In this document: positions 12,728 through 59,369 of the stretch, piece by piece
Position numbering within the stretch: the stretch's first letter is position 1
How the letters are laid out: the number at the start of each line of letters is the position of its first letter
Assembly: GCA_026874595.1 (NCBI GenBank)
Contig: CM049309.1
Location: 18,182,576 to 18,246,575 of the forward strand
Length of the DNA: 64,000 nt
Origin: Sipunculus nudus
Lineage: Eukaryota > Annelida > Sipuncula > Golfingiida > Sipunculidae
Reading direction: 5' to 3'
Made by a program: the position numbers and the translations under genes
The notes under the pieces: model-generated
Told to the model about the DNA's origin: nothing
Databases searched by the model: none
Seen by the model: the letters and a program-made list of their open reading frames with translations, nothing else

Positions 12728-13032
12728 TGTCAGAGACGAGATTGAAATCCAGGCAGATTTTAAATTCGCCTTGACAAGATTGCAATTGTGATCTAACCTA
12801 GGCAAGATTGCGATTGTGATCTTGCCCAGACGGATTTTAAACTCACCTAGACAAGATCACAATCGCAATCCCTGCTAGACAAGATTAAAATCCATCATGG
12901 AGCAGGCCAGGATTTTAATCTTGCCTAGGAGAGTTTAAATCCATCTGGTATCATCCAGGCGAGTTAAAAATCTGCCCGATACAACTTAGACGAGTTTAAA
13001 ATCTGCCTAGGTGAGATTAAAATAGTTATCTG
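12728..13032 (+). mobile_element. Polypalindromic element arm (TATA-flanked, TGTCAGAG start)
   Basis: The left end reads TATA|TGTCAGAGACGAGATTG. The following 300 bp alternate short self-complementary words (CAGATTTTAAATTCG, AGATTGCAATTGTGATCT, AGATTAAAATC) joined by CTAGGC/GCCTAG-type links. The opposite terminus is missing. The architecture matches the elements at 30395, 53506 and 57615 with a different word set. Confidence 0.6.
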
Positions 13033-30394: not shown

Positions 30395-30909
30395 TGTCAA
30401 GGCCCAGATCCCAATCTGGACCAATCAGTGATTGGTCCAGACCAGATCCCGATCGGGATTTAGTCCGGCCTAAACCCCGATCGGGGTTTAGGCCAGACCA
30501 AATCCTGATCGGGATCTGGTCTGGACCAAACGCTGATTGGTCCAGACCAATCGGGTATTGGTCCAGACCAAATCTCGATCAGGATCTGGGCTGGACCGAT
30601 TCCCTATTGGTCCAGATCAAATCCCGATCTGGATTCAGTCTGGCCTAAACCCCAATTGGGATCTAGTCTGGACCAGTTCCTGATTGAGATTCCATGGCAG
30701 ACTTAAGCAGGCTTTTGGTGTAAACATTATATTTCACAAGGATAAGACATGAAAATAATAAACCAAGTTGTGTGAAAAAATTTATTTTATATATATTAAT
30801 TTATGTTATAAAAACATCAATATATACGTATATAGTGTTGAAAATGTTGATAAAAGGAGTTATAAATTGTTGGTTTTCATTGGTCCAGATCAGGATCTGG
30901 GCCTTGACA
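30395..30909. mobile_element. Polypalindromic element, GATC word set, complete (515 bp)
   Basis: The ends are TGTCAAGGCCCAGATC and GATCTGGGCCTTGACA, each flanked by TATA (30391-30394 and 30910-30913). The left arm (about 310 bp) is a chain of palindromic words; TAAACCCCGATCGGGGTTTA at 30471-30490 is a perfect 20-mer, along with GATCCCGATCGGGAT and GGTCCAGACC. The right arm is only about 30 bp. The AT-rich interior matches, inverted, the interior of the copy at 53506-57529. The open frame at 30331-30648 is a by-product of the arm. Confidence 0.85.
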
Positions 30910-30913
30910 TATA

Positions 30914-31748
30914 CTTACATTTGATATATTTGTTTATATTAGCTTGATTCCCCCCCCCCCCCCCCCCCCCTTTGAATTGTTTACATTTCTGAGGGGTAAA
31001 GTTTTACTTCATTTGATATATTTGATTAAATTTCTGATGGGTATATTTTTACCATATTTGATATATTGATTTTTTTTTTACTTTGTGTTTTTGAAGGTAT
31101 TTTATTTCAATGACTGACAACAGATAGATCTTATCTTAAAGATGATTTCAGTGATATTTTAAATAAAAAAGGGTGACCCTGATGAACCTTGAATTTGCTT
31201 AAATGTGCGTTTGTGTTTCAATTGCATATTTCATGTATATTTTTTATTTGCTTGAACTTTCCTTTATTTGTTGTAAGCTTGGTATTTCCACTGACCATAT
31301 AATATACTTTAAAATTAAAAGTTAATTTTGCGACCAGTCTCCTGTACAGGTCATTTAAAACATTCCAGCTGTTTTAGTAAGAAAGTGGACTGATTGGTTT
31401 TTCAATAAATGTTAATTTAGTGATGATTAATTTATTAATTATTAATTTAAAATGATAAAAAATTATTTAAAAAGTAAAAAAATCATGACTTTTTTAGAAA
31501 AGTTGATTTTTTACCAGCCCTTCAAGAAAGTATTGAGGATATCCTGCAGATACTGAAAATACTTTAGTGCACTTGACATTGAAGAAGGGCACATATAGTT
31601 CCTATATATTCATTTCATCATTTGTAAAATTGATAAGGAAAAAATGGCGCTTTTCATTTTTTAAATTCTGAATAATATTTATTTTTATTTTCCCTCCTCC
31701 TGCCCACCACTTTTCACTTCTTCGTCCAAGAAAATATTTATTAATTAT
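30914..31748. other. Intron 2; poly-C tract and AT-rich sequence
   Basis: A run of about 22 C lies at 30949-30970, then repeated TTTGATATATT.GAT motifs to about 31080. Nothing else is seen. Confidence 0.5.
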
Positions 31749-32004
31749 GTAAGGCCTATGGCTAAAAAAAAGAAATCAGGCAGGCATTTTTTTTTTACCT
31801 TCTTTTGTATGTTTCAATAAAAATGTCATATGATCAGGGAAAAGCATGATAATAGCAGGTTTTTGCTAAACAGGTAAAAAGCAATACATAACGAAGGAAA
31901 TCTTATCAAAATTGTATTTTATCTTCTTGAAAGATGTAAAAAAATATCAAAATTTTTTATGCAGGGGTTAAAATTGATGTGGGCGGTGCCTGAGAACAAT
32001 ACCT
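31749..32004. mobile_element. Diverged second copy of the GGTATGGTTCTCAG element
   Basis: Shares GTTTCAATAAAAATGT, GGGAAAAGCATGATAAT, TTTTTTATGC.GGGGTT and the right end CTGAGAACAATACC with 28769-29071. The left terminus is degraded. Confidence 0.65.
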
Positions 32005-32584
32005 GTCTAACCAGAAAGCTGCTTTTTTGGCTATTTTATCAAGAAACAGATGACAATGTATTAGAATTAAAAGGTACACATCCTATGAGCCATTGATACT
32101 ATCAATGGCAACTGTTTCTTTTAATAATATATCACACATATATAGCTGATCTCAACCATGGCTTTCCTTCATGTCTCTATATGGGTACTTTCACACTAAA
32201 AGGTTGGATATGATTAATTGTTAAACAATGGTTCACAGGTAAGTTTTGTGGCTGAAAATATGATACATTTTATCATATTTGTAAAGGCCACACCAGCCTC
32301 TATAAACACAGAAAATTTTATAAGTCTAAGCCAATTTTTAAAGAAGTTCTGGTCATTTAAGTGTAATTTTCACCAAATTTTGGAGTCTCACTCACAAAAA
32401 TGGAAGAATTAAATGTAAATATGACTGAAATTTGTTTACCAGAACAGAAATATTCTAATCACAGCACATACTGTAACATGTAAACTACCAGTGCTCCAAG
32501 TTTCATGACTTTCATAGTGGTGGTTTAAATTATCCAATCAATATCATTCTGTATAATAATTGGTTAAAAAATTTTGCTGGGACC
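32005..32584. other. Intron 2; no feature seen
   Basis: Non-coding; nothing recognisable before the first TGTCCTC motif. Confidence 0.45.
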
Positions 32585-34237
32585 TGTCCTCCCCAGTACA
32601 TTGCATCCTCTCAAGAAATGTAATTCTCATGTTGCAAAACAAAATCCTGCTTTAAACAGCCAGTATTATATCTAATCATGTTTTGGTAACTATGGGGTGG
32701 GTATGTGTGTTCTGACCCAGATGATTTGGCACTTGTTTTACCTGGTATATGCCTGTTAAAAAAATTGTCCTCTCCAGTACATACATAAAAAATTCACTTT
32801 AATGAAGAAATTAAAAGCCTATTTTAGTTTATATGTAACAGGTAGCTAGGAAGATAAATTCTCTGGTGTTTGCATTGCAACCCATCAAAAATTTTGTGGT
32901 CAGTTTAGCAATGAGAGTATCTGTTAAAATGTCCTCTCCAGTACAATTATTTTTAACATGAGGCAGGCTGGAGGAATACTTCTCCAAGTAAGCTTAATAT
33001 TTACTTAAAGTTTGTCCTAGGGATAAATATAAATAGACTGACTGGTTTAGGGAAGTATTTTGGCTCATTATATAAATAAATTATCATGTAACTCCATTTA
33101 CTGTCAGTGCTCATGTTTAGATTGATGAATCTTCATTGATAAATTCATGATAAAGCCTTTCTTGTACATGTTCCTTCTTTGTACAGAAGTGAGTAGCAGA
33201 CAAAAAACATACCTGCAATAACTGCATGAAAATTGTGACAGTAGCAGACTTTAATTTTGTAATACTTAAATGTACTGGAGAGGACATTTTTTTAACACGG
33301 GATAAAAGTGTCAAATGTACAACCCTTCAGTCTTTCAGATTTGCACGGAAGTTCTTGAAGCTTTCAGTCACTGTGGATACCTAACCTGCTTACTTTTAAT
33401 TTTAATAAATACCATGTAGTTTACTATATAGACCCCATCATCTATTACTTTGGTAATTATAAGAAATGTGTAATTGTATCTGTTTTTAACCAGAACCACA
33501 TACATGTTAAGCTTCTTTACCAAATAAGACCAGTAGAAATAGTCAATCTGCCCAAATTTTCATTTTTACCAAAATCTAACATTTCATTATCTGGATCATT
33601 CACTCTTTTCATGTCTCCTATTTTATGTACAGTGCCATAATGATGATTGCTGACATTTCAACCCAAATTGTTTTAGCCAAAGATAATTCTTATGAAAATA
33701 CCAGTGCTTTCTGTTCCCTTGCCATCTCATCAGCCATGAATACATTACTTCATGAGAGAAACCAATCAAATTTGCCAATACTTTTGCCTCAAGAGAAGGT
33801 CACCAACTTGTGAAACCAAACAGCTTTTGAAACTATGGTCTCCCAGTTTGCTGGTACACATTTTAAATGACACAGTTATCAGTGTTGGGCCAGGGGTGGT
33901 GAGGGTGGAGGCATCATGTGAAATTGTTCTTTGACAATGTGCTTTTCTTTCCCCCCCAATTTACCAAGTCTCACAGCAAGGCCTATGAAAACAATGATAT
34001 CAACATTGTCCTCTTGTAAAAGTTTAATTTTCTGGTTCCAATTAATCTAAGTCTCAGAAAAGTTGTATTTTTATGTTTTAAGTTCAATGGAAATATCCTC
34101 ACAAGTAAAAAGCCATAAGCAACTGAAATGTCCATTTCCACAACTGTTGTGTCACAATGTAAAGTACAACTAGCAGGACCCATATCTGAAGTTATCATAT
34201 AATACAAAAATGTATGTCCCAAAATTTGAATAAATTA

Positions 34238-34295
<58 letters not shown>

Positions 34296-34886
34296 ATATT
34301 TTCCCCAGGTCTACAATAAACATTTTGTTTATATTACATTCAGATGAGCTATGTTGTCTATGAACCAACTGTTTAATGTATGCTGTAAAATAAGTTGAGA
34401 GATGTTAATATTTAAAGTAAATGTGTTGGAAATAAAACATGAGTGCAAAAAAAAACAAATTATATTTGCATTAGGGATTGTGAACAAAACTGCTTCTGAA
34501 CAAAATTCATATAAATTTTGTGAAATATTTCATTTTCAAGAGGACCGTTTCTACAAATTTTTGTTTCAAATGATTTCTGGAATATAATTTTTTTCAACAA
34601 AACAAAAGATACAAGCCATCCAATATTTGATATCTTGCATTTAATATCATGGAGTCATAACTGACTTACATTATACTTAATAACTGAAACTTTGGTAAGT
34701 CTATTTTGTGCTCCTTTAATCACAAGATCAAAATAGTTGCAGATGAACTTGCCTCTAGAAAATGAGGTGGACACTGATTCATTTTATGTTCAAGAGGTCC
34801 ATGAACAATATAAGAGAGAGAGGGAACAAAAACATTCCAATGAATTCTTCCACAGTGCATGTTAAAATAATGTCCTCTCCAGTACA
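32585..34886. repeat. Five interspersed copies of TGTCCTCTCCAGTACA
   Basis: The 16-mer occurs at 32585-32600 (one change, CTCCCC), 32766-32781, 32930-32945, 33271-33286 (reverse strand) and 34871-34886. Four copies are preceded within a few bases by TGTTAAAA. Sequence between copies is not visibly repetitive. Nature unknown: it may be a remnant of a larger element or a factor-binding array. Confidence 0.7.
34243..34292. repeat. (TA)n microsatellite
   Basis: About 25 uninterrupted TA units. Confidence 0.97.
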
Positions 34887-35538
34887 AATGTCGGTAAAAA
34901 CTGTTATCATATAAATCAAGTGACCACCGACTAAGGCATCAACATATTTCCTGATTTCTTTAACTCTGTACAGCTGAAAAACTTCTCTCACCATTTCCGT
35001 TACTGATTGAGCAGAGCAGAATCAGAATAAAGACTGAGAGCATACTTCCTTTAATCATAATTAAAATGCATTGTTAAATTTTTTTATAAAAATATGAAAA
35101 TTTCATATAAAAACAAATGTGATTGCAGATTTTTTTTACCATGCACTTAGGGCATGATCAAATACATCAGATAAAGACATTAGAACAGACCAATGAGCAA
35201 AAATTTAAATTATGTTGAGCTGTGAAGAGAAAAAGATTATTGTAAAAATATTGGATGTTTGAATTACTGAATTCAAGGTAACTTTCATTAGTTCACAGGT
35301 AAAATGGTATACTAAACAGTTTCCTTTGGCTAAGATATATACCTTTTCAGGAGTAAACTTAATTTTGCTCAGTTAGGTATTCAGTTTTTACTCCCCAGTG
35401 AGACTAATCACTCAACCTTTTGTGTAAAAGTGCCCATATATACTGGCACATCACATTTACTCAAAGCAGAAGTGGTTAAATTAAGTTTGTTGATAAACTC
35501 CTGGCATTAATAAAGTGCCTGATTGTTGATGATGGATA
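34887..35538. other. Intron 2; no feature seen
   Basis: AT-rich non-coding sequence. Confidence 0.45.
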
Positions 35539-35805
35539 TGTCAAGGCCCAGATGGCGATCTGGACGGATCTTAGATCTGCCCAGCCCAAATTGCGATCGC
35601 ATTTCAGGCCAGCCCAAACTGCGATCGTAATACAGGGTGGCCAGATCTTAGATCCGTCCAGCCTAGATTGGGATCGCAGTTTAGTCTGGCCCAGACTGCG
35701 ATCCTGTCTTTCTTGCTTCAGGATCGCAATCTGGTCTGGACAGATCTAAGATCAGTCCAGCCAAGATTGCGATCTTAAACTTTACCAGCCCATATTGCGA
35801 TCCAT
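35539..35805 (+). mobile_element. Polypalindromic element arm, GCGATCGC word set
   Basis: Starts TGTCAAGGCCCAGAT, identical over its first 15 bases to the elements at 30395 and 53506. It then uses different words: GCGATCTGGACGGATC, TTGCGATCGCA, ATCTTAGATC. Preceded by GGATA. The right terminus is absent, so this is a one-armed fragment. Confidence 0.7.
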
Positions 35806-35813
35806 GCTTTTAC

Positions 35814-35972
35814 GATCACAGGAGTGAAACATTGGTTGTTTTACCAACTCATTTGGTATTGCATTGTACCATTTTCCCATAATAAATACAATTATACTAC
35901 AGAAAGGCAATTTTCACTCCTTCATATCACAGGAGTGAAACATGGGATTTTTCACCAACTCATTTAGTATTG
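35814..35972. repeat. Direct duplication, ~111-bp offset
   Basis: ATCACAGGAGTGAAACAT and ACCAACTCATTT.GTATTGCAT occur at about 35814 and 35925. Confidence 0.7.
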
Positions 35973-37471
35973 CATGGTTGTTGAAAAAAAGATAACAAGG
36001 AACCCATGGGTTTTATATGCTCACAAAATATGATTTGGAAGAGGAGGTAGGCACAGATTCACTAAGAAATCCTACCTCAAATGATGATACATCAATAATA
36101 TTTCTTTCACAAATACACTAGTTACAGATAGTTAGGAAACAGGAACATACTCTGGGACCATCCATTTATAATCTCAGCAACCACAATATTTTCATATTTT
36201 GATTTTTAATGTGACCTATGTGATCTCCTGATCAAAACACAAAAGACAATAATATTAAGAGAAAAACATGCACGGACAACAGTGCTGCAACGTCATATGC
36301 CTATTAGACCTGTGACAGCATGTACCCAGGCTCTGTGCGCATGCCCAGCAAAGTCAAGTGCACTTGTTGTAATAACTGCAATGGCTATTTAATACACCAG
36401 CATAAAGCGAACCATTACAGCTAAACAGTTTATTGATCTTATAAGCTCCACCTACGAGGCGCCTCAGTTCTCTCATGTGGTGGTGGCCATATTGTACTGC
36501 ACAATGAATCAATGCCTGCGAAAACAAAACAGTTGTACACTGGTCCCAGCATGTCCAGGCTTCATTATACACTTCCATTTATCCTGCTATCCCAGCACCC
36601 CTGAGTATGGAATATGATAGCCTTTTCAGGAGTCTCATGTTTGCTACCCACATCCAAACAGACCTTCTCAATATCTTGTCTACACAGGTTTGCTTACAAC
36701 TTTTTAAGCTGGTGTTGTTTGGTTCCTGTCGCCTGTGTGGTCTTGCCAATAATTTGAAAGCAAAATAACTAAGTGGTGGAAACAGACTCTCTGCACGCCT
36801 GTCAAATTTACATCTCAGATAACATAAATCTAATATTCTCACATAATTCAACACATTTCAAGTCAATGTTAACAATCTGTACATTAAATGACATAACTTT
36901 ACACTTCTGTGCTTTCCTCCAGAACCCTGGTGAGCAAATAAAGAACAAGCCTGGGCTAATCTCCACCACTACCACAGATCACCAAGACATGGCATTAATT
37001 TTATAAATTAACTTAAGTTATCTGCTATTAAAACCTATCTAAAGTTTATCTGCTACCTGAACCTGAAAAAGAAATTTACTTATAAACAGACAATTAAGAA
37101 TAAGATTATAATCTCATGAGTTGGCTGATTTTCTTAAAGGCTATGTGTTTTAACCTATATCCAACATATTTGTAAGAGATAATATTGAACTTGCAGAGGG
37201 ATGTAATGATAAGCCAGTATAAAAACTGTAACAATTGAGATTTGCTCTACTCTTTTTATTTATTTTTTAAATTTTAATACTTTATTATTATGATTATTAA
37301 TTTTTTTTATGTTGAAACATAATCCTGAGACTTTGATATGAACAGTAAATTGGCATTTTAATTCACTCAGTAAAGAACTGAACATCCCACACTGATATAT
37401 TAACACAAACCAAGCTTGATTAATTGAAGACACTAATTACAAACATGCAAAATGGCCAAATGTATACCTAC
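35973..37471. other. Intron 2, proximal part; no gene
   Basis: Begins with an AACAAGGAACCCATGGGT fragment at 35994-36010. A TGCGCATGC motif lies near 36337. Otherwise unremarkable up to the exon 2 donor. Confidence 0.45.
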
Positions 37472-40400
37472 CATCACGGTTCATTTTCCTGCTGCCATCA
37501 TCACAATCACCATTTTCACTAGTTTTACACACAGATGCTGAGTAATCCAAACTTGGCTGTTTGCCACAGCTAAAAGTGTCCTTTCCATTCACCAAACCAC
37601 TGGTGACCACAGACTCAGGGGTCTTGGTGGCGTCACCATTAGACAACGCCGTGGAACATACCTCTCCTTCACTATCCACGGCATCTACATTCCTTGTATT
37701 TCCACAGATTCTACTACCAATAGCGTTACACTCCATTTCGAGCTCTCGGTCAACTGAGCCAAGGTTTAAATCTTCACTTGCCCTTACGTCTGATTTCCAC
37801 GGATCTGTGAAAGCTTTATCAATAATAGAATCCACTCGGGCTTTCCATGGCAGCTCGGACACTTTGGTGCCACTTAACGTCTCATAATGTTTTGAATAGT
37901 CACTTTTGGATAAAAAATGCTTCCCATGGGCCATCCTGCTCACCACATCAGGATGTTCTTTTGGATTCAGCATTTTTTCCATGAATACCCCCGGGGGTAG
38001 CTGACACTCCCGGCTGTCCAGTGCCATACCTACTGTAAGCATTGTGGAATCATGCATGGGCTTTCTTTCCTGGTTGTCATTAATACCAGGTTTTACAGGG
38101 TCAGACGGCACCGATAGTTTGTCTGTCCCTGCATTCACCATAGATTGCTCCACTGGACTTGGCACTGGGCCATTTGATAACAGCTTAGGATGATCAGTAG
38201 GTATACTACAGTCATTGGAATGGTGCACTGCGTCTATGTCACAGTTCTGTAAGTGCTCTGGCACAGCAGAGTTCACTGTATGATGGCTGGTTTTGCTTTT
38301 CATGGGTTCTATCACAGGAGATATAGAGTCACTAGCTTGCTTTTGTAACACCAGGACTGGCCTGGCATGACCAGAAGGGTGTGATGATACAGTTATTTTG
38401 GAGTGAGCATTGTGAACAATACCCCCCTGAAGTTCATTGGCACCAAGGACATGTGCCTGGGTCACAACACTACTGAGAGTATGATTTGGCGACAATTTGT
38501 GTTCTGAGTCTGTGGATCGGTTTTCATCAGTGTCTGACATGAGGTCCTTGCAAAGTGACAAGGACTCCTGTGAGATTTCTGAGGTAGGACTACGCGAGTC
38601 TGGCTGTGCATTTGGAGTACTAGACTGGACCATAGTGCTGCTCACACCTGAATCTGCTGGGCTGCTGGAGCTCTCCGAGTTTGGTCCACTTGGGAGACTG
38701 GTGCTGATGGTCTCTGCATTTTCACAGGCTGAAGGCACAGAGTCGTTTTGACTCAACAGGACAGAGTGGCCAGCATCTTGTAGGGTTCCTGGCAGCAGGG
38801 TAGGCTTATGAGAATGAAGTGGACTAGAATGGGGATGGTGTGTAACACTGGAACTAACAGCTACTGAGCTAGGTCCTACTAACATGGAACAGTGTGATGT
38901 GGTGACCACAGGTGCAGGGATAGACCTGTGGGTCAGCGAGTTCAAACTACTGACCAAATCTCCACTATTTCCGCTCTGCCCACCCATCTGACCTAAGTCT
39001 AATGGCACTGGAACCGTCCTCATGAGGTCAGCTATTGACAAAGGTGGCGCTGCCACAGTGCTAGTGCTAGAGGCTGACGGCATTCCTCCTCCTTGCAGAA
39101 CCATTCTTGGATTACTGACTGTCAGAGTACTTGTTAATCCCAATCCTGGCCTTACCCCATGCAGTGAGGTACCTTGTAGCCGTATGACTGAGCCACTCCC
39201 TATTGGTGCTGCCACATGAGGTGGAGTGAACTGTGAACTGTCCTTCAAATTTGCACAGCTAATGCCACTTTTCAGCTGCCCTGCTACATAAGTATTTGTA
39301 TTACTAGTCTCTGTCATGATGGAATCCTCACTAGTCACCAACTCAAACTGTCCTGTGAATGGGTTGATGAGTTTACCTGCAAAATTATCAACAGGCGGCT
39401 GTGCAATAGTTTGTATCAGGGACTGGTGTGAAGTGGTTTGTGGGCCTGCATGTGCCAAAGTCTTGGCTGGACGGATACTGGCTGCAGGCAATGGTATTGA
39501 GGAGCTGCTGTCAACCACAGCAGTGTGGGTACCTGGTGCAGAAACAGCAGTGCTGGATGCAGGGATTGAGGTCAGGGATACTGAAGCCTGAAGGGGTACA
39601 GATGAAGAAGCAGGCGGGAATGAAACAGACAAGGTGGAGGAGCTAGGGTGGTTGGCTCTGGGTACAACTGGTAGAGGTGGCACTCTCTGGAAAACACTTT
39701 GTGCACTGCTGGGCATGGTGCCTGCAGAGCTTCCAGGCATTTTGTCCAATTCCATCGGGGCAGCCGTTGTCTCAACAGCCTGAAGAGCTGGGGCTTTTGG
39801 TTTTCGAGGTCTACGTTTCCGCTTGGGGGGTGTTGGGTTCAGTGCCCCTTCCATCATTGCTGTTTTGCTCTGGATGATATTGTTCAAATGTGCCCCTGCC
39901 TGTTCATTCTGCAGCAAGTTTACTAGTAAAGGACTAGTTGCGGATAATGTGCGACCAAACAAGCCTGGAGGAAGGTTCTTCAGCATGTTACTATCTTGAC
40001 TTAGCTGCATCACCAGTTCAGCTGCAGCCCTTGGGTCTTTCGACAAGCACGCTGAGCTGAGTTGGGAGGCTAACGAAGGCGGTATATTCATATGCTGAGA
40101 AACATCAGGGTTAGCCTGGGCTGGTTGAAACTGGAAGGGTGGAGTATGGCTTGGAGTATGGCTTGGGCTTTTCCCTGATGGTGCAATACCAGGCTGCAAG
40201 GGTACTCCAATTTGTAATCCACGCCCCTCCTCTGCCTGGCTAACTTTTGGTTTCTGAAGCACACCTGGTGACTCTGTCTGGCTAAGTATTGAGTCAAACA
40301 CTGCAGCTGGAGTGCCTTGCTGCCTGAGGTAATCAACAATATTTTTGCGAGTAGTTTCCACATTAGGGCCTGGTAACACATCCTCAGAGGTGGAAAAGTC

Positions 40401-40672
40401 AAACACGGAACTGGTGACATTTGAGCTTGTCGCCTGCCTTGGTGAATTAGTCCTAAACACAAGCTCTGTAGGTTCATTATTTTTGCCTGCGATAGTGAGG
40501 GATATGAGACGATCCCCCTCTATTTGCACTGCTAGAATACCCAGATCGCGCAACGTGTGGTCACCCTGTTCTGCCAGATGTCTCAGTCGTACAGCTGCCT
40601 CCTTTGGGATGTTGAAGGTGACACGCACACTGTTCCATGGTTCCACCTTCTTCAGAATTAATGTGCTCTTCT
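37472..40672 (-). CDS. NCOA6: NCOA6 exon 2 (3.2 kb; N-terminal domain and LXXLL box)
   Basis: This exon encodes residues 41-1107 and the first base of codon 1108. Its acceptor is TTGTTTCAG|AG. Residues 42-105 complete the family N-terminal domain (KKVEPWNSVRVTFNIPKEAA, LRDLGILAVQIEGD). Residues 289-294 are LLVNLL within TSPLLVNLLQ, nearly identical to the receptor-binding LXXLL box of vertebrate NCOA6. A basic run KRKRRPRKPK (about 324-333) follows, as in vertebrates, and is a likely nuclear localisation signal. Much of the rest is Ser/Thr/Pro-rich and probably disordered. LSIADLM (about 585-591) is the nearest thing to a second box and does not fit LXXLL. Residues about 933-1002 look more ordered, with spaced aromatic and charged residues; I do not recognise this segment. 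Donor GATG|GTAGGT is preferred. A second donor, GTAG|GTATAC, would end the exon at 37468. Confidence 0.95.
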
Positions 40673-43600: not shown

Positions 43601-44419
43601 GACAGTCTGACATAAAAGAGTTTCAAGTTGGTTAATATAAATTTATCTAAGCCTAAGGTAACTATAGTCCATTTCATCCCCTCATGTCCACCTGTTTTAT
43701 GCAATGAAAATTTTTATTAGTCATATTTCAAGGGAAACAATTATAATGGGGAGTACAGGATTTAAGGACCTAATTTTCAACAAGGTAAATAAATACCTAC
43801 CTAACACCTTATTTAAGTAACAGAATTATTTGAAAATATGAGAAATCAGTCAATATTTTACAACATATCAGACCCACTTATGGCAGACAATGTCTAGCTC
43901 AAACGAAGATGGTCACTAATGCAATGACACATCATATCTGCCAGATCATTGTGAAGAGACTAAAAAGTTGTATAACATAAACAAGGGATTTATTGTAAAA
44001 TTTGAAATTGCCATACTAGGTTGTCTCTTCCATAAGAAGTTTTCTAGGGTTTAGTTGAAAAATATAAACTTTTATGAAAATCATCGACAAAAACAGGTGG
44101 ATAGCAGGTGGTGAAACAGACTATAGCATTTTTTGTCAAGACACATGAAGGATCATGCATTGAAAATATAAACAGCAAATAATGGTGACTGAAATTATGA
44201 TAACACAAAGACGGAATGGATGAAATAAAAAGATTGATAATTTTCAGCATGTCTGCAATATTCTCATCAGAGAAAAGTAACCTTGACAAGAGATAGAAAA
44301 AGAGTGAGGTACCAAAAAAAAATAAAGATGTTTTCTTGGAAGTAATTAATTGTCACTGCTGCACAAAAAACCATACCAAGATGAGCATATGTTTGTAACG
44401 ATTGCGGGGCCATACACAC
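40673..44419 (-). other. Intron 1 of NCOA6
   Basis: A 3.7-kb intron with GT-AG ends and phase 1. Apart from the tandem repeat at 41560-41815, nothing is recognisable. An 87-codon plus-strand frame at 42717-42980 has no family resemblance. Confidence 0.8.
41560..41815. repeat. 61-69-bp tandem repeat with G-runs, 4 copies
   Basis: Units GGTCAGATGGTCATATTACT and TATAACTAATTAAGTTTTCT, each ended by GTTGATGG plus 7-14 G, start near 41568, 41629, 41698 and 41765. Unit length varies mainly by G-run length. Confidence 0.92.
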
Positions 44420-44540
44420 CTGAGCCGATGAGGTCCTGGAGCCGTTTCCTGAAGCTATTTAGATTACTGTGGAAGTCTGGGTCGTAATAGTCCCCTTCAC
44501 ATGTCAGCACTGTCTCAATGTAGTCTTCCTGGGGACCCAT
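44420..44540 (-). CDS. NCOA6: NCOA6 exon 1 (first coding exon)
   Basis: This exon encodes residues 1-40 plus the first base of codon 41. The ATG at 44540-44538 is chosen because an in-frame TGA lies four codons upstream, inside the same exon. The exon itself starts at 44554, after a pyrimidine-rich acceptor (TTATTTTTCAG). At least one non-coding exon must therefore lie further upstream. The donor is CAG|GTGTGT after 44420. The encoded stretch, about residues 9-40 (ETVLTCEGDYYDPDFHSN and on to QDLIGS), aligns in register with the first half of the human NCOA6 N-terminal domain (IFVAFKGNIDDKDF...). It continues directly into exon 2 through a shared GAG (Glu41) codon. The region is acidic and has no signal peptide or membrane segment, as expected for a nuclear protein. 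Confidence 0.88.
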
Positions 44541-44554
44541 CCTGGGCTCTCAGG

Positions 44555-47500: not shown

Positions 47501-50500
47501 AGATGAACATGAAAAGGTACCTATTGGCTATGGTGCTTTAAAGAAAACAAAACTGGCACCAAAGGATATCACTTTGTTACCACAATCTGTGAAGCGTTGC
47601 AGTACTTTATGTGTAGATTGAAACATTTGCATGACATAATTGTCATGTCAGTCCATAAACATTCTTTCCATGAAAAAATTGCCAGAAGCCACCTATGAGG
47701 TATCATACACGGTGGTTTGGCTCATAACCTTTGACCTTTATCCTAATGGCCTAGCTAACGGACAATGTGATGAGCGAGGATGGCTCTGTTTTATTACTGG
47801 CACTATGTGAACTAGGTATCCACAAAATGACATCTCCCCCAACAAAACATGCACTTGAATCCTTTTATGTGTAACACAACTAACAGTAACAGTCTTGGAG
47901 CCTGGCAGATAAATTGCAGCAAACAATATCACAGTAATGTTTGACAACCCATTTGGCCCACTAATACCCATAATGGTCTAGTAATCTACATATTTAAAGA
48001 ATCAGTTCTGAGTTGACCAGTAAAGTAATATTAGTTGCATCCTGGGTACAGCCTGGTTAATGGCATTGGTGTTGATGAATTGTGGGCCTAAGGTCAAGAT
48101 TCCAAATATAGGTATACAAATCCTCTCAAAGCTATTTTTTTTTTGGGGGGGGGGGGGGTATTCTGCAATTAGTTGGAAATGACACTTTGCATAACTTGAA
48201 CTGATCAATTTATTCAAGTCAACTTCTATAAGTTGATTTTTTCTTCTTCTGAGGACCAAACATGGAGAATTCTTGTTAAACAGATAATCTTTTTAGATGG
48301 AAGATTCAGTACAATATGCTTTCAATATGACTATTTTAAAATATATTAAACTTAATTTCCTCATGGTCATTTAAATAGAGAAATATGATGACAAACTATT
48401 ACAAAGCCAATTTCTTGGAGGCTAAAATATTGTCAATGTATTGATAAAGAGACATCTGATGATATAATATTTGACTTTGTATCAATACTATCATGATGTA
48501 GTGTGGCACTGGTGATGCGCTCAAACCCTAACAACAACCTCCCAGGGAGGAGAACATTTTGCACCCAAAACAATATTAAAGGTGATGTAGCAAAAGCTTC
48601 CAAGTTCCATATTTGTTACAAAGCTTGTGTAATGTGAGCAGATTTAAATATATGACAGGAATACCTTAATTTCAGGGATGAAATAATAATGAACTGCAGA
48701 GTTGAAAACATTACATTTTTTTTCAACAGATTAGGTGTTGAAAATGTTGTTTCACAGTGGTATTCAATATTTTTATAAATCCACTTGTTCTCCAAATTCC
48801 ACTGTTTAATATTTAAAAGTTTAACCTTTAAAAAAAGCCAGTAATGTTAAGTAAAATTTAATGCCTTCAGTTTTTATCAAAATTTTCATTAAACTGACCT
48901 TTTTTTGGTGTAGTAAATTTGTTTCAATGAAGATGACAGTAATCAAAACTAAAAGTGCATAAAAACATGCATGTTACAAGACAATGACAGTAATAAAGTA
49001 CATAATAAACATATAATCCACCATCATCACCATGGGTGCACTGAGGTATCGGACACATAAAAGCATGTCATTGCTTCAGGTGACTTGATCAAATATATTC
49101 GGATGAGGCATCACCCGCCTTCACCTGTGTCACAGAACCATTTAGTTCCACACGCCATTTGCAACTTAATCATAGATATTGACTTGCTAATGGGCAATGA
49201 AAGTCGCAACTCTTGCCTCTGCATTTGAACATCAATATTGTCTAGCCTTTCATGTTTAAAATGGATTAGTATATGCATCAGAAAATTTTGCCAAGCTTTA
49301 GCAGATGATCTCATCAGCAGACATCAACATTTAGTATAACAATCAATGATCTCAACATCCCAGATGATTCCAAAAGCATCATCAAACTGTAACTGGTTTT
49401 GTTGTTCAAGCCTTATGGCAGCTGAGACATAATACCTGACAATTCATGCATATGTAAATACAGAGGCGCAAATCCCTTTTCCTGTCTCCAAAAGTTCCTT
49501 GGTCTTATTTTTACAAACCAGAAATACCATTAAGAATGCACTCACATGACCTCTGTTGCCTTGGCAGCCCTCTTTAACAAGCCAGACCCCCTACTAACCA
49601 CAAAACCACAAAAGTTGTGAATGTCATATTGTACCTGCCACTGATCATAGATAGTCATATGCTCTGAAAATACATCTGTCTGTTTAATGCTGCGCTCCCA
49701 CTGGCAAGCCTTTTTTTGCATGCAGATTATTTTAAATTAAAGGAAAAGCTGTCTGGTTGGGTTAGATACAAAAGTCCTATAAATACCTATATATAAACTG
49801 GGAGATAAAACTACCAATAAGTACTTGTTAAAAGTATAATAAAACGAATGATCTTTTTTTTAAGTTTGATTAATTATTGATGTTTTGTCTGCATCACATT
49901 TTTCATATCAAATAATTTAATTGTAAACAGAGCATGCCAATCAGAACTCAATTCATTTGTAATTGTAACTCTACTAGGGTTAGTTTTTCCATTACATGTA
50001 AATTGTTATGTTACAAATTAAAATATCAACCAGAAATATTTTCTTCAGGATAAGTCAATTATATATATTATATGTATTTTTTTGGTTAAATTTAAATAAC
50101 TACACTGGTAATTTATGGTTGACAAGGTACCTTGAAGGTACCCGAACTGGAAATATGATACTTATTGATACAACATAAATCTTTATGATTCTGAAGTAAT
50201 CAGCTTAATTTTTACTATTGCTTTGGACAAAGAACGGTTTAAAAGTGCTCTCTTTTATGTCTCATCTTAAAATGAAATGTCTTGTTGCCACGTATAAACC
50301 CTTTTTTAAACTTATCTTTACACTGCAAGACAATCAATATTCTTTTAACTTGTGTTTTATGGAAAAAGTGAGGAGTGCACCTATGGAAAGGTCATACTTC
50401 ATTCAGTTAATATATAATATTATGCACTGAATCTAAAGCCCTTAAAAATTAATGTGGCAAATGAAAGTTCCAAGATAAAAGTCAAACTCGGAGTCAGGAG

Positions 50501-50616
50501 TCACATATATCATGAATTCCATTTAGTCAAGAATACACATTTCTACCCCATTGTCCTACATTTTTCAAGAGTGCCACCATGAAAACTACAGTAGTTTTTA
50601 GCTATTGCACCTACTG
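44555..50616. other. Upstream of the first coding exon; no gene assigned
   Basis: This must contain or lead to the NCOA6 5' untranslated exon(s), but neither a convincing exon nor a promoter stands out. A G-homopolymer lies at about 48146-48158. Short open frames, such as 47738-47971 on minus, resemble nothing. Confidence 0.45.
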
Positions 50617-50624
50617 GTACTAGG

Positions 50625-51810
50625 CAGGCTTGGGTCAAGTACAGGGGGTTAGTACTTGAGTATAAGTACTTCAGAATTTGTCAAGTACAAGTACAAGTAC
50701 ACAATTTTTTAATGTACTTGAGTACAAGTACAGGGGTCTGTACTTGAGTACAAGTACAAGTACTTTTAATTAAAAAACTAAAAAACATTTTTCTGAATAT
50801 TTATTGATAAAACAATAACCTATATTATACACACTGTTACACAGGCAGATATCAGTACTGGTACACAAAAAAGATGGGTTGATGCTCCAATTGCTGAAAG
50901 TTTTTTTTGTTAATCTAGGTAATCCTGGGTGACAGTCTTGATGGCCTTTCAGTATTTATATACACTATTACACAGTCATATATCAGTACACAAGAAATGG
51001 TGCTTTGATGCCTTATTTGCTGCTCGACTTTGCTGAATATTTTTTTTATTCTAGGTAATCCAGGGTGATAGTTTTTATGGCCTTTCACAGTAGTTGGTAA
51101 TAGTTTATGAAAATAAAACTTATACTATAAGAAATATGTATATTATATACACTTTAATTACACAGTTATATTTCAGAACAAAAAAAGGTGCAGTTGATGC
51201 TTGAATTGCTAATTTTTTTTTATTCTAGGTAATCCAAGGAGATGTCTTGATGGACTTTCAGACTTTCACAGCGACTGGGAATAGTTGATGAAAATAATAT
51301 TTAGTTGTCATTTTCATCTACCTTTCATTTAGTTATGCATACACAAGCTGTCATTGCACTTGATGAACATGATACTCAGTGCGTAGTGTTTCCACAAGCC
51401 ATTCATATAATCAGGTCAGAGGATCTGAGCAGTTTAGGACTGAGGTATAGTTTTGGTTCATCAGAACAACTCACGAAACAGGTTGAAATATTCAGTCTAG
51501 TGTCAGTTCTGTCTGAGTCTATCAGACATACATAGTGGTAAGATTTCTGTCTGACCTGAGGTCTCCTAATGCTGTGTTTATGGTTAGGTAGATAAGTGAC
51601 TCTGTATTCAAAGTAATTTTAAAAGAATACAATTACTTGACTAGTACTTGAAATGTACTTGATTTTTCAAGTACATTTTTATCAAGTACAAGTACAGTAC
51701 AAGAACTGTACTTGGTAAAAAGTACCAAGTACAAGTACAGGCCAAGTACTGAAAATTTTGTACTTGAGTACAAGTACCAAGTACAAGTACATGTACTCGA
51801 CCCAAGCCTG
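50625..51810. mobile_element. Non-autonomous hAT element, 1,186 bp, 8-bp TSD
   Basis: The ends CAGGCTTGGGTCAAGTAC and GTACTCGACCCAAGCCTG are inverted repeats, flanked by perfect GTACTAGG at 50617-50624 and 51811-51818. The arms (about 150 bp) are packed with AAGTACTTGAGTACAAGTAC-type words, so they are themselves palindrome-rich. The middle holds three diverged units (ACAC..TTACACAG..ATATCAGTAC ... TCTAGGTAATCC.GG.TGA) near 50825, 50960 and 51150. No transposase is encoded. Confidence 0.92.
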
Positions 51811-51818
51811 GTACTAGG

Positions 51819-52340
51819 TGTTGAATTGTAAAGGATTTTTTTTGTTTTTAAATAGCAGTTAAAATAAGACATGAAAGTAGACCAAGCTTTCATGAAACAC
51901 CTCTAGGGAAAGGAATCAGGCATTGGAAATTTATCTTATATTAATAACCTGTTGCATTCAATGGTCACCTGGAGGTATAATTAAGTGCATCGAGATCATG
52001 AAGAGCCTGGGAACACAGATGTGTGTTTTCCTGTTATTCATCATTATATAAATAAATTTGACACACTGACCTGGTTTCCTCAAATAGATCACAAGGCTAT
52101 CATCAATTTATAATCACAGATATTTATCATGTCCCATTTAAATGTAGCACGGACACAGGAATTTGGTAAAAAACCTTGAACTGTTTTGAACCAAGCAAAG
52201 CTGCAGCACAGCTGTTTTAGTGTGCTGTATTTACTAGACTAGATTATGTGCTGTATTTACTAGACTGATCTTAAAATGTACAACTAATAGAATTTTAGGA
52301 TCAGGCTAAACAGTCCTGTAGAATTGTAAAACCAAAATGA
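51819..52340. other. No feature seen
   Basis: Non-coding. TGTGCTGTATTTACTAGACT is duplicated at about 52220-52265. Confidence 0.5.
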
Positions 52341-52530
52341 AACTAGAATATGGGTAGTCGACAAGCGCCTAAATCAGAGTGGAACAGGTGAAGTGAGGCA
52401 TGGATTGAATGGCAAGGGGAAATAGAGTGAGGTGTGTTGCATATTAGCATGGATGTCTGCAGCCAAAATGTGTATGTAGGTTGCGCCACCTACCAAAAAT
52501 CCAGAAAGCTGTCCAAGTTGTACATGTCAC
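52341..52530 (+). mobile_element. HINE (GGCGCC) element, left piece, split by insertion
   Basis: AACTAGAATATGGGTAGTCG is followed by GCGCCTAAATCAGAGTGGAA and GTCTGCAGCC...TTGCGCCACC, the 5' end of the family seen at 2263 and 56611. It breaks off near CCAAGTTGTACA, where the next element's arm begins. The rest resumes at about 59900. Confidence 0.8.
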
Positions 52531-54231
52531 AGGACAAACTCCGATCCAGTATAATCGTCGATCTTACTAGGACAAAGTCTGATCGGACTTTCTACTAGCA
52601 AAACTCCGATCAGACTTTCTACTAGTAGGATCGGCGATTCTACTAGGACAAACTCCGATCATAGCTTCTACTAGGACAAACTCCAATCAACCAGAGACCA
52701 CAACATAATTAGACTTTCTACTAGTAGAATCGTTGAATCATCAATATAAATATACTAGTTGGATCAAAGCTTCTACTAGGACAAACTCCGATTGAAGTCT
52801 CTACTAGGACAAACTTACCATAATGGTCTAATTTCTGAAACCTGAGATTATAAATAAATTAAACAGTAATATGGTAACCAAATGTTTTATTTATGTATCT
52901 GGCACAAAATGAAGAAATACAAATTCAAGCACATATGATAAAACACAATATCCTAAATGATTATACCCAATATGACTTTCTAAAAGACTTAGAGTATATC
53001 ATGATTGTTTTATACAATATACAGGACAACGGTTGTTTATTAGGTTTTTAATGTGGGGTTAAACACTGGTATATGGTAATGGTTGACATGTTAGGTTTTT
53101 TTTATGTAAAACCGTTATATTTATTCATTGTTTTATGAACTATACTTCTAGAATTCTTGTAATAACGCTGTATTGTATAAAACTGCACTCCTTATAGTGT
53201 ACAGGGAAAATAAAAGATCGGTCATCTGTATGTACTGGTATAAAGTAAGTTTGTGTATAAGGACAGGATGTGAATGAAATATTTTAGATCTATCCTTAAA
53301 TTAAGGAATTTTACATATATACAAGTACATAAAGAGTTTGTGCTTATATGTACTTGTGCTTTTATTTGTATTTTTTAGAATATGAACTTGTATGAATTGT
53401 ACTTACCCAAGGGATGTGTATTTCTGAGAATAAATGTTCTATTTGAAATACCTACATTCAGTATCAGTGGTTTAATTGATAAACATAAGTACAGGTGGAT
53501 GTATATGTCAAGGCCCAGATCCCGATCTGGACCATTCGCCAGACAAATCCCGATCAGGGTTTAGGCCAGACCAAATCCCGATCGGGATCTGGTCTGGACC
53601 AATCGCCGATTGGTCCGGACCAGATGCCGATCAGGATTTGGTCTGGCCTAAACCCCCATCATTAACTTTTAGGAAAGAGAATAAGTTCCTGTCTGAACTG
53701 ATCAAGGTTCAGGTCAGCCCAGACCTAGATTCTGAGCATGCCTATATCCCTGACAGGATGTCTGAAATTATAACTTAATAAGCAATGACAAATGTCAATT
53801 TAGTTTGTAGTCAGTATTAATTTTTCTATCTTAATAACTTAATCAATATTTAAGTTTTGAATTAATTGAGTGATTACATTTATTGTAATTATTTAGTCCT
53901 TGTATTATTTTTCAAAATGAATTATTATTTCCAGTATTTTCATCAGATTGTTTATTCAATTTTTTATATAATAATTGAACTAGTTAAGCTGACTCACTGT
54001 GTAATTGAGTATATATATTTGATGCATTTTGTAGTGAATAAATTGTTAGATGGATGACATATATAAGAAGTTTATTATCATATGAAGTTTTCAGTCCCCA
54101 GATTTCAAATATGGATATTCTTAACTTGTATCAACTCATGAACAGCTTACATTCAAATGAAAAGTCCTGATTTCATAAAACCAACAATTTATAACTTCTC
54201 ATATCAATGTTTTCAACTAAATATATGTATA

Positions 54232-57071
54232 TGTCGAGGGAAGAATGAGAATCAGGGAAGATCCGGAATCCTCCCGGGAAAAATCAGAATTCTGATTTTT
54301 CCCGGGAAAAATGAGAATCCAGAGATGGTATGAAGGGATTCCCATTCTTCCCGGGAAGAATGAGAATTCTCATTCTTCCTGGGACAAATGATAATTCCAG
54401 TCTCTCCCGGGAAAATTGAGAATTCTAATTTTTCCCAGGAGAGATTGGAATCCAGTTTTGAAATTCAAACCTGGGAAAAATGATAATTCCCATGCCTGGA
54501 ACTAACATGAAAATATCTGGTTAATTAATTCATTTATAATTGTGCCATATTAAACTTGTTCATGCATCCTTTTCATCAGTGTTAGAGATTAAAATGTTCA
54601 ATAAGTATGTTACCCCAGTTACACTCTATTATTTAGCATATAAAATAACCGGTATATGTTTTTCATGGCTGAACTTAACATGGATAGATGTCAGAAGCTC
54701 ACTGACAACTTGTCAGATGTGTTACTCAATCTAACATAGATGTTTATCTTCACTGAAGTGTAGATTAAAAATATTCACATCTACAAATCTTTATAATTGT
54801 ATCCGCCAAAACAGAGTTTTGCGGATACTATGTTTTCAGCTGGCCGCCGCCGCCGCGTAGGTGTCCGGAGAACTCCTCCGTAACCGCTGGGCGGAATTTT
54901 CCGAAACCCGGGATTATGTTCGGGTCACATGTGAACTGCTGCGCCCCGATTTTGTTTGACCTCTGACCTTTCCTTTGCGCTCTGCGTCCGTTTGTGCGTC
55001 TGTTTCCACACATAAACCCACATATCTCGGGAACTGTTTGACCGATCAGGAAAATTATGCACAAATGTAGCCCTCGGAGAGCTATATAACATACACCAAA
55101 AATGGTGGCGCCACCTGCAACCATGTTTGCACAGTGTCCATCTGTTCGTCTGCCTTGGGTTAAAATCACTCATATCTCTGCAGTGACTTGACTAATTCAC
55201 CTGAAATTGGGCATGCTTATACATCCTGGATAGCTTTTCTGATTTTATGACAGGTGGCGCCACCTACATTCACGTTTACGCTGCAGACATCCAAGCTCAT
55301 ATCTCGGGAACCGTTTGACCGATCAGGAAAATTCTTTTGCACAAATGTAGCCCTTGGAGAGCTTTATAACATACACCAAAAATGGTGGCGCCACCTGCAA
55401 CCATGTTTGCACAGTGTCCATCTGTTCGTCTGCCTTGGGTTAAAATCACTCATATCTCTGCAGTGACTTGACTAATTCACCTGAAATTGGGCATGCGTAT
55501 ACATCCTGGATAGCTTTTCTGATTTTATGACAGGTGGCGCCACCTACATTCACGTTTATGCTGCAGACATCAAAGCTCATATCTCGGGAACCCTTTGACC
55601 GATCAGGAAAATTCTTTTGCACAAATGTAGCCCTTGGAGAGCTTTATAACATACACCAAAAATGGTGGCGCTACCTGCAACCATGTTTGCACAGTGTCCA
55701 TCTGTTTGTCTGCCTTGGGTTAAAATCACTCATATCTCCGCAGTGACTTGACTAATTCACCTGAAATTTGGCATGCGTATACATCCTGGATAGCTTTTCT
55801 GATTTTATGACAGGTGGCGCCACCTACATTCACGTTGACGCTGCAGACATCCAAGCTCATATCTCAGGAACCGTTTGACCGATCAGGAAAATTTTTTTTG
55901 CACAAATGTAGCCCTTGGAGAGCTTTATAACATACACCGAAAATGGTGGCACCACCTGCAACCATGTTTGCACAGTGTCCATCTGTTCGTCTGCCTTGGG
56001 TTAAAATCACTCCTATTTCTGCAGTGGTTTGACTTATTCACCTGAAATTCGGCATGCTTATACATCCTGGATAGCTTTTCTGATTTTATGACAGGTGGCG
56101 CCACCTACAATCAAGTTTACGCTGCAGACATCCAAGCTCATATCTAGGGAACCGTTTGACCGATTGGGCCAAAATTTTGCATGTGTATAAATCTCACATA
56201 GCTCTTTATCATACACAAAACTGGTGGCGCCACCTGCAGCCATGTTTGCACAGCTCCCATCTGTTTGTCTGCCATGGGATAAAATCACTCATATCTCGGC
56301 AGTGGTTTGACATATCTGCCTAAAATTTTGCAAGTTTATACATCCCCGACAGCTCTCTTGATTTATGACAGGTGGCGCCACCTGCATTCTAGTTTATGCA
56401 GCAGATATCCAAGCTCATATCTTGGGAACCGTTTGACCGATTGGGCCAAAGTTTTGCATGTGTATAGAGCTTTCTGGATTTTTTGGTAGGTAGCGCAACC
56501 TACATACACAATTTGGCTGCAGACATCCATGCTAATATGCAACACTTCAGCCGTTCCACTCTGATTTAGGCGGATACAAGTAGTCGCTTGTCGACTACCC
56601 GTATTCTAGTTCAATCATGTGTGCTAAGAACTAATATGAAAATATCAGGTGTGCTTGTTTTCAGCTTACATGTGATGGGTTTAGTACTATCATGTGTGAA
56701 TAAAACTGATTTCAACAGAAATGTGTCAGCAATGGCCAGTTAATAACATTAAAGTTGGTTATAATACTGTTGTAAAATATGCAAACTTAACCCACCTTAA
56801 CTACTGAAAGGTTATCATTTAACAAATTGGTGCTGGCTGGGAAAAATCAGAATTCTGGTTTTTCCCGGGAAAAACCAGAATTCCCATTCTTCCTGGGAAA
56901 AATGAGAATCAAATCATAGTATGAAATGATTCTCATTTTTCCCGGGAAGAATGGGAATCCCCATTATTCCTGGGAACAATAGGAATTCTCATTTTTCCCG
57001 GGAAAAATCAGGATTCTCATTTTTCCCGGGAGGATTCCGGATCTTCCCAGATTCTCATTCTTCCCTCGACA
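54232..57071. mobile_element. Polypalindromic element, CCCGGG/GAATTC word set
   Basis: Starts TGTCGAGGGAAGAATGAGAA and ends TTCTCATTCTTCCCTCGACA, with TATA at 54228-54231 and 57072-57075. The arms (about 54232-54500 and 56840-57071) repeat TTTTTCCCGGGAAAAA, GAGAATTCTC and CCATTCTTCCCGGGAAGAAT-like words. The interior is interrupted by a minus-strand HINE at 54797-56613. Confidence 0.85.
54797..56613 (-). mobile_element. Helentron-like (HINE) element, GGCGCC core, longest copy
   Basis: Read on the minus strand it starts AACTAGAATACGGGTAGTCG, with a GTAGTCG-ACAAG-CGACTAC hairpin and sub-terminal GTATCCGCC. It ends in the hairpin at 54828-54799, whose last bases are GGCGGATAC. The core has near-identical 280-bp units: CAGGTGGCGC at 55251, 55531, 55811, 56092 and 56369. 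Each holds two GGTGGCGCCACC palindromes about 140 bp apart. The high unit identity makes this the youngest-looking copy in the window. Confidence 0.85.
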
Positions 57072-57614
57072 TATATATTCATGTTTTTATTACATATATC
57101 AATATATATAAAATCATATTTTTACACAAGTTGATTTATTATTTTCATGTCTTAACCTTATGGAATATAATGTTCAGCCAAAAGCCTGCTCTAGTCTGCC
57201 ATAGAATCTCAACCAGGAACTGGTCCAGACCAGATCCCGATCAGGGTTTAGGCCAGACTTAATCCTGATCGGGATTTGGTCTGGACCAATCAGAAATTGG
57301 TCCAGCCCAAATCCCTATCGAGATTAGGTCTGGACCAATTCCTGATTGGTTGACGATTGGTCCAGACCAGATCCCGATCAGGATTTGGTCTTGCCTAAAC
57401 CCCGATCAGAATCTGGTCTGGACAATGGCTGGACCAGATCCCAATCGGGTTTAGGCCGGACCAAATCCTGATCGGGATCTGGTCTGGACCAATCGCCGAT
57501 TGGTCCAGATCAGGATCTGGGCTTTGACATATATATTGCATTTTTTTGCTGTGAATTTAACACAGGATGTGAATGAAATATTTTAGATCAATAATCAGGA
57601 ATTTTACATATATA

Positions 57615-59369
57615 TGTCGAGGCCAAGATCAGAATCTGGCCCAATTTAAAACTGGGCCAGCCTAGATCAAAATTTTGATTTGGACTGGCCCAGATCAAAA
57701 TTCTAATCTGGGCCAGACCAGTTTTAAACTGGGCCAGCCCAGATTAAAATTTTGATCTGGGCCGGTCCAGATTCAAATTCTGTGGTGAAGACTTCAGGAT
57801 TTAAATCTGGTCTGGACTGATTTTAAACTAGGCTGGCCCAGATTAGAATTTTGATCTGGGCTTGTTAAGTTTACAATCCTGTGGTGGACTGATTTTAAAC
57901 TGGGCTGGCCCAGATCAAAATTTTAATCAGGGCTAGTCAAGATTACAATCCTGTGGTGGACTGATTTTAAACTGAGCCTAACCAGATTAGAATCCTAATC
58001 TAATCTTAGGCTAGCTTGATTTTTATAATCTTAAATCAGATAATACAGTAAACATTTATTCCAGATACACCATTTTGAAGGGGCCAAACACATAATGAAC
58101 AAGATCATTTAAAATTTATTATTAATATTTTTTAAAAAAGCTAACAAACAAATGTAATGTGCTTCTTTGGTTTCTTCTATCCTTCAAGCATGCAAGTTCA
58201 CATTTGAAATTCACCTAAACCAACTACCACAATTGATCACAGTTTAGAATATGTGTAAGTTCTGAGACATCTACTTGACTTAATATCAAAATTTTCAACT
58301 TAAATGAGATAATAATCTGTTCTGAATATCAAAATTATATGTGTAATATTAAATATATACATGCATAATTAAAAACCAGCTTTTCTCATTTATAAGTGAA
58401 CAAAAGTAATTTATCAGTCTTGATGCTCATTTGGGTGAGCCACATGACATTGTGCCCTAATATGGGGCTAGGGAGACCTTTGTGATACCATTACTGTAAT
58501 TTTCAATAGCAGAAAATCCACAGCTGAGAAAATGATATAATTGCTGTCATTTGGCAGTCTCAAAAATAATGGTGAACATGCGTGAAAACTGGATAAGAAT
58601 TTTATTTCAGAGGGTGACAAACATGGTGGAGGTTTCACTTTGGAGTTAATAACTTAAAAAAAGCTAATCTATTAACTGATAACTAATCTCAATTGAAGAT
58701 AGTTAAATGCTGCAATACAAATATTCTCTACCTTCAATTGTTAAAATGCTGAGTTGGTGAATATTGTTCCCAATGTTCTATCTAAATACATTAGGATTGT
58801 GTTAATAATTTACACAAATTAGCAAATATCAACCTATTTTATATACACTAGATATATATTTTTCTGTTTGCTAAATTTCAGTCACCTAATTTCAATGAAT
58901 AAATATGACAGGAGTCCAACCAATGATATTTTCAAAGAAAATGAAATAAATTCATAAAATATTAATTATTATTGACTTTCAATGTTTTACAAATTCTTGG
59001 AATTGATTAAAGGCCAGCTAGGTAAATATAGTGTAATAGAAGCCAGCTTGGAGTAGATTAGGATTCTGATCTGGGCTGGTCCAGTTTAAAATTAGTCCAC
59101 AACAGGATTGTTAACCTGACCAGCCCAGATCAAAATTCTAATCTCAGCTGGCCCAGTTTAAAATCAGTCCAGACCAGATTTAATCCTGAAGGTCTTCACC
59201 ACAGGATTTTAATCTGGACCGGCCCAGATCAAAATTTTAATCTGGGCCGGCCCAGTTTAAAACTGGTCTGGCCCAGATTAGAATTTTGATCTGGACCGGT
59301 CCAAATCAAAATTTTGATCTAGGCTGGCCCAGTTTTAAATTGGGTCAGATTCTAATCTGGGCCTCGACA
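57615..59369. mobile_element. Polypalindromic element, AAAATTTT/TTTAAA word set, complete
   Basis: Starts TGTCGAGGCCAAGATC and ends CTAATCTGGGCCTCGACA, with TATA at 57611-57614 and 59370-59373. Arms of about 330-400 bp repeat CAGATCAAAATTTTGATCTG, GGCCCAG/CTGGGCC and AGTTTTAAACTGG. The roughly 1-kb AT-rich interior is non-coding. An unoccupied version of its target lies at about 53317-53333. Confidence 0.87.

Follow-up and report, generated by a model that had tools for sequence, protein, structure and literature searches.

Palindromic words in the arms of non-autonomous Ginger2/Tdd elements of Sipunculus nudus: putative transposase half-site arrays in a fixed register

Introduction

What kind of transposon carries inverted arms that are composed of short palindromic words, and what could maintain such a design? 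The question is raised by a stretch of 64,000 nucleotides from the genome of Sipunculus nudus (contig CM049309.1, positions 18,182,576 to 18,246,575), here called the window, for which an original prediction had described four complete, non-coding elements with arms of this kind and had named no described family with this word-based design.

Long inverted arms of short repeats are typical of the foldback elements FB of Drosophila and TU of sea urchins, which have other termini and longer target duplications. Arms built from repeats may form through tandem duplication and template switching. Ac, En/Spm, Tn7 and Mu have multiple transposase sites behind the tip, in the form of direct or irregular repeats, and are not known to show a chain of two-fold symmetric words with a spacing that is conserved across families. 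In the portions of the literature consulted, the foldback elements Galileo and Tetris also show long inverted arms of short repeats, and Hermes (hAT) shows several transposase sites behind its tip, a likeness to the arrays proposed here.

Elements of the window

Inspection of the sequence places all four elements exactly where they had been predicted (Table 1), with the termini TGTCRAGG and CCTYGACA, the one announced variant (CTTTGACA at 57529) and TATA directly outside both termini in four of four cases. That they are non-coding agrees with the sequence for E2, E3 and E4, the longest open frame overlapping 52400-60000 comprising only 113 aa. The two one-armed fragments suspected to be relatives are indeed F-like and A-type arms, but the first does not start with TGTCRAGG and the second follows GATA. 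Long inverted arms are present as expected in E4, whereas those of E1 are unequal. A fifth, H-type element that surrounds E2 and E4 had been overlooked. Its right tip is lost and its end therefore approximate, its left flank is TACA, and within the window it gave no match to the integrase probe described below.

Table 1. Positions of the elements and arms in the window
Feature	Position	Strand	Description
E1	30395..30909	.	D-type non-autonomous element; TATA on both sides
E1 arms	left 30395-30690		left arm of palindromic words, ~296 nt; right arm ~35 nt
E2	53506..57529	.	D-type; right terminus CTTTGACA; interrupted by E3
E3	54232..57071	.	C-type; nested in E2
E4	57615..59369	.	B-type; 324-nt inverted arms, 90% complementary
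H-type Ginger2 element	52525..~59893	.	starts TGTCACAGGACAAA...; host of E2 and E4
Single F-like arm	12728..12939	+	TATA-TGTCAGAG...; ~70% to the arm of L038
A-type arm and adjoining sequence	35539..36053	+	94-95% to parts of L041 1-405; GATA before

The description of the arms as strings of palindromic words was borne out by the proposed comparison with shuffled arms (100 shuffles per arm with dinucleotide content kept; of E1 the left arm was scored). Palindromes cover 0.45 of the left arm of E1 and, for left and right arms, 0.51/0.52 in E2, 0.59/0.80 in E3 and 0.42/0.33 in E4. Scored arms are thus covered to 33-80%, against about 1% in the shuffles (means of 0.001-0.012, i.e. 0.1-1.2%), and the scored middles of the elements reach 0-0.03.

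The region 52341-60851 is a nest of insertions in which a tandem-repeat element is split by the H-type element (pieces 52341-52522 and 59899-60851), which in turn contains E2 and E4. E3, inside E2, holds another copy of this tandem-repeat element. A dispersed element with ~280-bp repeats carrying GGTGGCGCCACC occupies 716-3293, 54796-56590 (the copy in E3, with its start near TATCCGCCAAAACAGAGTTTTGCGGATA) and 59899-60851 and occurs also in the loci L033 and L045. Further repeats, spaced by ~290 bp around TATATGTCCCATTGGAAAAGCAAG and GGTCAAGGTCA, are located at 4468-5377 and 62410-63813, and parts of them match L050 264-450. A run of ~20 C adjoins E1 at 30950-30971.

Target site and genome-wide termini

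Flanks of the elements were joined at one TATA and compared with the window and the collected loci (L numbers) of the same genome. Among the matches listed, an empty site with a single TATA is seen for E2 in L050 (94% over 222 nt) and similarly in L042 and L044, for E3 in L002 (85% over 283 nt) and for E4 in L050 (94.7% over 225 nt), in L042 and L044 and at 53263-53397 of the window itself (81%); for E1 the matches listed from this search include none. As the empty sites keep the full TATA, 4 bp are duplicated and a TA duplication is excluded. The base before TATA is R in 29 of 29 elements and the base after it Y in 28 of 29; both bases lie outside the selecting pattern, yet many of the sites are found within (TA)n runs.

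The termini are conserved throughout the genome, as had been anticipated. Exact A/B/D-type ends matching TGTCRAGGCCCAGATYNNRATCTGG number 1,152 (938 after TATA and 214 otherwise) compared with 0 for the reversed-pattern control, and the pattern TATATGTCRAGG has 2,391 occurrences versus 755 for its reversed control in the genome of 1.43 Gb. With conserved termini and word-built arms the elements form a real transposon group, as claimed.

Integrase-bearing relatives

The genome was searched with an integrase probe of 229 aa, an approximate query. Its matches are graded from ~75% down to ~36% identity and stand above long open frames at 27-32%, which are taken as retroelements. Many long open frames obtained in a genome search with PF00665 were taken as retroelements, too, and set aside.

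Among 27 loci around integrase matches (L026-L052) 19 have a recognized word-family arm at one or both ends, and L026, L035, L037, L045, L047 and L049 have none. L035 and L037 are only 29-30% identical to the probe and may stand outside Ginger2. L052 presents at 4489, near an integrase match, a TGTCATGG end with palindromes (GTACTGGTAC) that fits no recognized family and is perhaps a further one.

Two-armed integrase copies are L038 and L040 (family F), L033 and L041 (G), L042 (H), L029 and L031 (I) as well as L043 (C). TATA is present on both sides of L029, L031, L040 and L043 and on one side of L033, L038, L041 and L042. In L043 the E3-like C-type arms (481-4395) surround a broken integrase, and the right tip has changed to TTTCGAGG. 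In L048 a single C arm, 90.6% identical to the E3 arm over 245 nt, lies beside a broken integrase, and the integrase of L036 has an E-type arm nearby, with 80.9% identity over 152 nt. When an enzyme partner of the families A, B and D was sought among these further integrase loci, a degraded A-type arm in L051 (84.7% over 111 nt), near an integrase fragment, was the only candidate, and none was firm.

In comparison with Pfam, rve passed its cut-off in L034, scored under it in L032, L029 and L043 and was very weak in L040, while Integrase_H2C2 passed in L032 and scored under the cut-off in L029; two pieces of L036 matched no family and a 428-aa piece of L033 had no integrase match. The 675-aa open frame of L034 (3290-5317) has, besides the integrase core, a match to C48 (Ulp1-type) peptidase near its C-terminus that remains just below cut-off. 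Ulp1 domains occur in Ginger1 according to the part of PMC2836005 consulted.

The integrase frames of L032, L033, L034, L036 and L043 have a common Cys-rich C-terminal motif. It looks similar to a CXC-type (tesmin) DNA-binding domain, a likeness for which neither Pfam nor PDB sequences gave support. In L041 (at 400) the left tip of the G-type integrase element directly adjoins an A-type arm and lacks TATA, which may reflect a deletion or recombination between two Ginger2 ends.

Assignment to the Ginger2/Tdd group

According to the consulted part of PMC2836005 (Bao, Kapitonov and Jurka, 2010), Ginger2/Tdd elements have TGTNR termini and duplicate 4 bp in RTATAY (TDD-4/5 duplicate 5 bp); their inverted termini measure 45 to ~300 bp, and their integrase has an H2C2 zinc-binding region and a DDE core. 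Apart from the 5-bp duplication these features recur here. TGTC[AG]AGG terminates the four window elements on either side, with the single exception of CTTTGACA, the 4-bp duplication lies within RTATAY, and the related autonomous-type copies contain the H2C2 zinc finger and the DDE integrase core. From termini, TATA target, duplication length and linked integrase, the window elements are judged to belong to the known Ginger2/Tdd group and do not represent a new one. Ginger1 was rejected because its CCGG or CCGT duplication is absent and TATA is found instead.

The elements with TGTCRAGG termini could alternatively belong to another superfamily, either a TA-duplicating one similar to Tc1/mariner or foldback elements, and resemble Ginger2 by chance. 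The families A, B and D, for which no firm integrase partner was found here, would fit this explanation. However, the full TATA of the empty sites means a 4-bp duplication and contradicts the 2-bp TA duplication of Tc1/mariner, which was rejected on this ground; C-type arms, which share the eight terminal bases, enclose an integrase; and a gap-free alignment is obtained between A, B and D and the integrase-bearing families F, G and H. This makes chance resemblance highly improbable, and we infer that A, B and D elements would be moved by Ginger2-type enzymes. The suggested foldback relationship turned out to be a look-alike: inverted arms of short repeats are shared with FB and TU, a resemblance that does not imply descent, but TGTCRAGG termini and a 4-bp TATA duplication do not fit these elements, the repeats here are palindromes in a common register, and the relatives carry an integrase-type enzyme.

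The claim that no described family shows this design appears to stand for the arms and falls for the group. The arm design looks new, as the literature searched yielded no earlier description of palindromic-word arms in Ginger2. The only Ginger2 text found in this search that combines “palindrom” with “terminal inverted repeat” uses the term, in its consulted part, for a homing nuclease and its target. In the text of PMC2836005 “palindrom” appears 0 times, and its consulted part describes neither palindromic words nor a register or a family code. Sesarmid nimaviruses have a Ginger2-like integrase, insertion in (AT/TA)n and inverted termini (PMC10871703, consulted in part), but these termini measure 46 bp and belong to a giant viral element, and “palindrom” is used 0 times.

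Anatomy of the arms

The families were defined from termini and from the inverted repeats found at integrase loci, and the following counts cover loci with visible arms. In the first 200 nt of 78 arms from 11 families the mean palindrome coverage is 0.35-0.82 by family, compared with 0.004-0.042 in shuffles and 0-0.19 in inner stretches; one D arm has a coverage of 0.00. This set leaves out arms that are truncated, shorter than 200 nt, misplaced or unreadable (E1 right, L007 both, L008 right, L011 right at 523, L013 at 149, L017 left, L018 at 153, L024 right, L025 both, L032 left, L043 right and some arms of L026-L031, L034, L036, L039, L044, L046 and L050).

In the TGTC families A-H the palindromes are centered 17.5, 34, 44.5, 58.5, 72.5, 86.5, 100.5 and 111 from the tip, i.e. 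mostly in steps of 14 and 10.5 bp. The mean over the 11 representatives is highest at 34 (0.73) and 58.5 (0.74) and lower at 17.5 (0.45) and 44.5 (0.50). Family C is weak at 86.5 and 100.5, and single families miss single centers. The TGTTAC families I and J have a center at 33.5 followed by a pitch of ~14.5 or 29, and K a pitch of ~19 further in. None of 5,000 random shifts reached the observed peak or variance of the register shared by the 11 families, and the outcome was again 0 of 5,000 in a set restricted to eight families (A, C, F-K) and to centers beyond 28. Register and covariation were analyzed with one representative per family (11 for the register, the eight TGTC families for the gap-free alignment), and these families are partly related.

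The A-H representatives can be aligned over 122 columns with no gap, the ungapped identity of positions 9-120 being 37-68%. Invariant in all eight are G25, C43, G46, A58-T59, C71 and others. Within the words 82.1% of the cells are paired versus 63.0% in shuffles and 23-52% with slid partners, and 32 of 46 pairs are changed on both sides in some family; the shuffles reached the observed values in 0 of 500 cases on four of five measures and in 1 of 500 on the fifth. Dyad symmetry extends to the joints between words (75.0% paired versus 59.8% in shuffles; 0 of 500 on three measures, 1 of 500 and 2 of 500 on two). As the paired structure was derived from these very sequences, and as some kinship exists among the families, the controls are somewhat biased toward this structure. 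The aligned sequences indicate that related families have changed many letters and have kept the mirror pattern and its spacing from the tip.

Among 276 pairs of word lengths, 21 and 28 give the best gap-free tiling of A-H. If they are imposed, seven of eight families read 21-28-28-21-28 and D reads 21-28-28-28-21, with low scores in C, E and above all H (0.05), for which the tiling used a different arm from that in the gap-free alignment. The best two-length tiling is 22/36 in I/J and 19/20 in K. When word length was left free, the parse of the arms failed to recover 21 and 28; the boundaries are ambiguous because the joints are palindromes, too.

Family code and co-divergence with the integrase

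The triplet next to the G of each putative half-site recurs, for the most part, throughout a family (GCG in F, TAG in E, GAA in C and CCC in B). In A and H different triplets occur together, and A, B and D partly share theirs. Concordance of this code within families is 0.685, compared with a mean of 0.337 for shuffled slots (reached in 0 of 5,000).

Strong palindromes and base-pair covariation would also be expected if the words formed hairpins or cruciforms and if structure, not sequence, were recognized. The letters that are invariant across the eight aligned families argue against recognition of hairpin shape alone, however, and the words of one arm tend toward a common code, which independent hairpins would not need. 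As word centers and joints are both dyads, one hairpin would moreover exclude its neighbor. A recognition of hairpins is unlikely on these grounds.

Arms and integrases have diverged in parallel. For E and H the arms are 61% and the integrases 59-62% identical. Over eight families with one locus each the correlation between arm and integrase identity is r=0.92, a value attained by none of the 40,320 permutations other than the observed order; part of it reflects the misregister of clades that differ in pitch. When the five TGTC families with integrase are taken alone, the correlation is weaker (r=0.63; 5 of 120 permutations).

How symmetry behaves in resident copies was followed in 18 of 19 B arms (of 20 in the 78-arm set), where among only 43 substitutions 25 single-sided changes face 1 double change and paired columns have changed at nearly the same rate (0.0192) as other columns (0.0202). 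Mirror correction was not seen in these copies, so symmetry would be kept by selection on mobile copies. Code columns have changed most (0.039) and columns invariant across families least (0.013).

The arms might instead have grown neutrally, tandem duplication and template switching in inverted repeats copying half-words without any function. Words within a family are alike, as this explanation predicts, and the different rates of code and invariant columns in B copies can be read either way. Neutral growth is distinctly improbable, since the excess of single-sided over double changes and the equal column rates speak against it, and it predicts neither a common register among families with other words nor the correlation of arms with integrases.

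Putative half-site arrays

The window elements are probably non-autonomous cut-and-paste elements of the Ginger2/Tdd group whose arms represent arrays of putative transposase half-sites, with a register that is fixed relative to the cleaved tip, an interpretation drawn from sequence comparison. Their insertion target is RTATAY, of which TATA is duplicated. Behind the tip a half-site at ~8-20 would be followed by words mostly of 21, 28, 28, 21 and 28 bp, each half-site combining the 3-bp code beside the G with a conserved frame in which the G precedes A/AT steps. Symmetric words would place two transposase subunits face to face. The Ginger2 transposase would bind these half-sites and read their code, and several subunits would be assembled on each end. 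Selection acting on mobile copies would hold the symmetry.

A wider scenario is quite possible, and we put it forward tentatively: at least eight related integrase-type families in one genome may use the same nucleoprotein ruler with about five 3-bp codes, each with its own transposase lineage. Specificity would then have switched several times, the half-sites being rewritten in concert while symmetry and spacing were kept.

Significance

Ginger2 is a eukaryotic cousin of the retroviral and Gypsy integrases, and the structure of its ends appears to have been little studied. A conserved ruler with a variable code offers a testable question, namely how a transposase changes its DNA specificity when many sites on two ends must change together. 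The arm design also suggests a search rule for non-autonomous Ginger2 elements that are beyond the reach of recognition by coding sequence. If the proposed scenario is true, the parallel families would represent a natural set of end–enzyme pairs.
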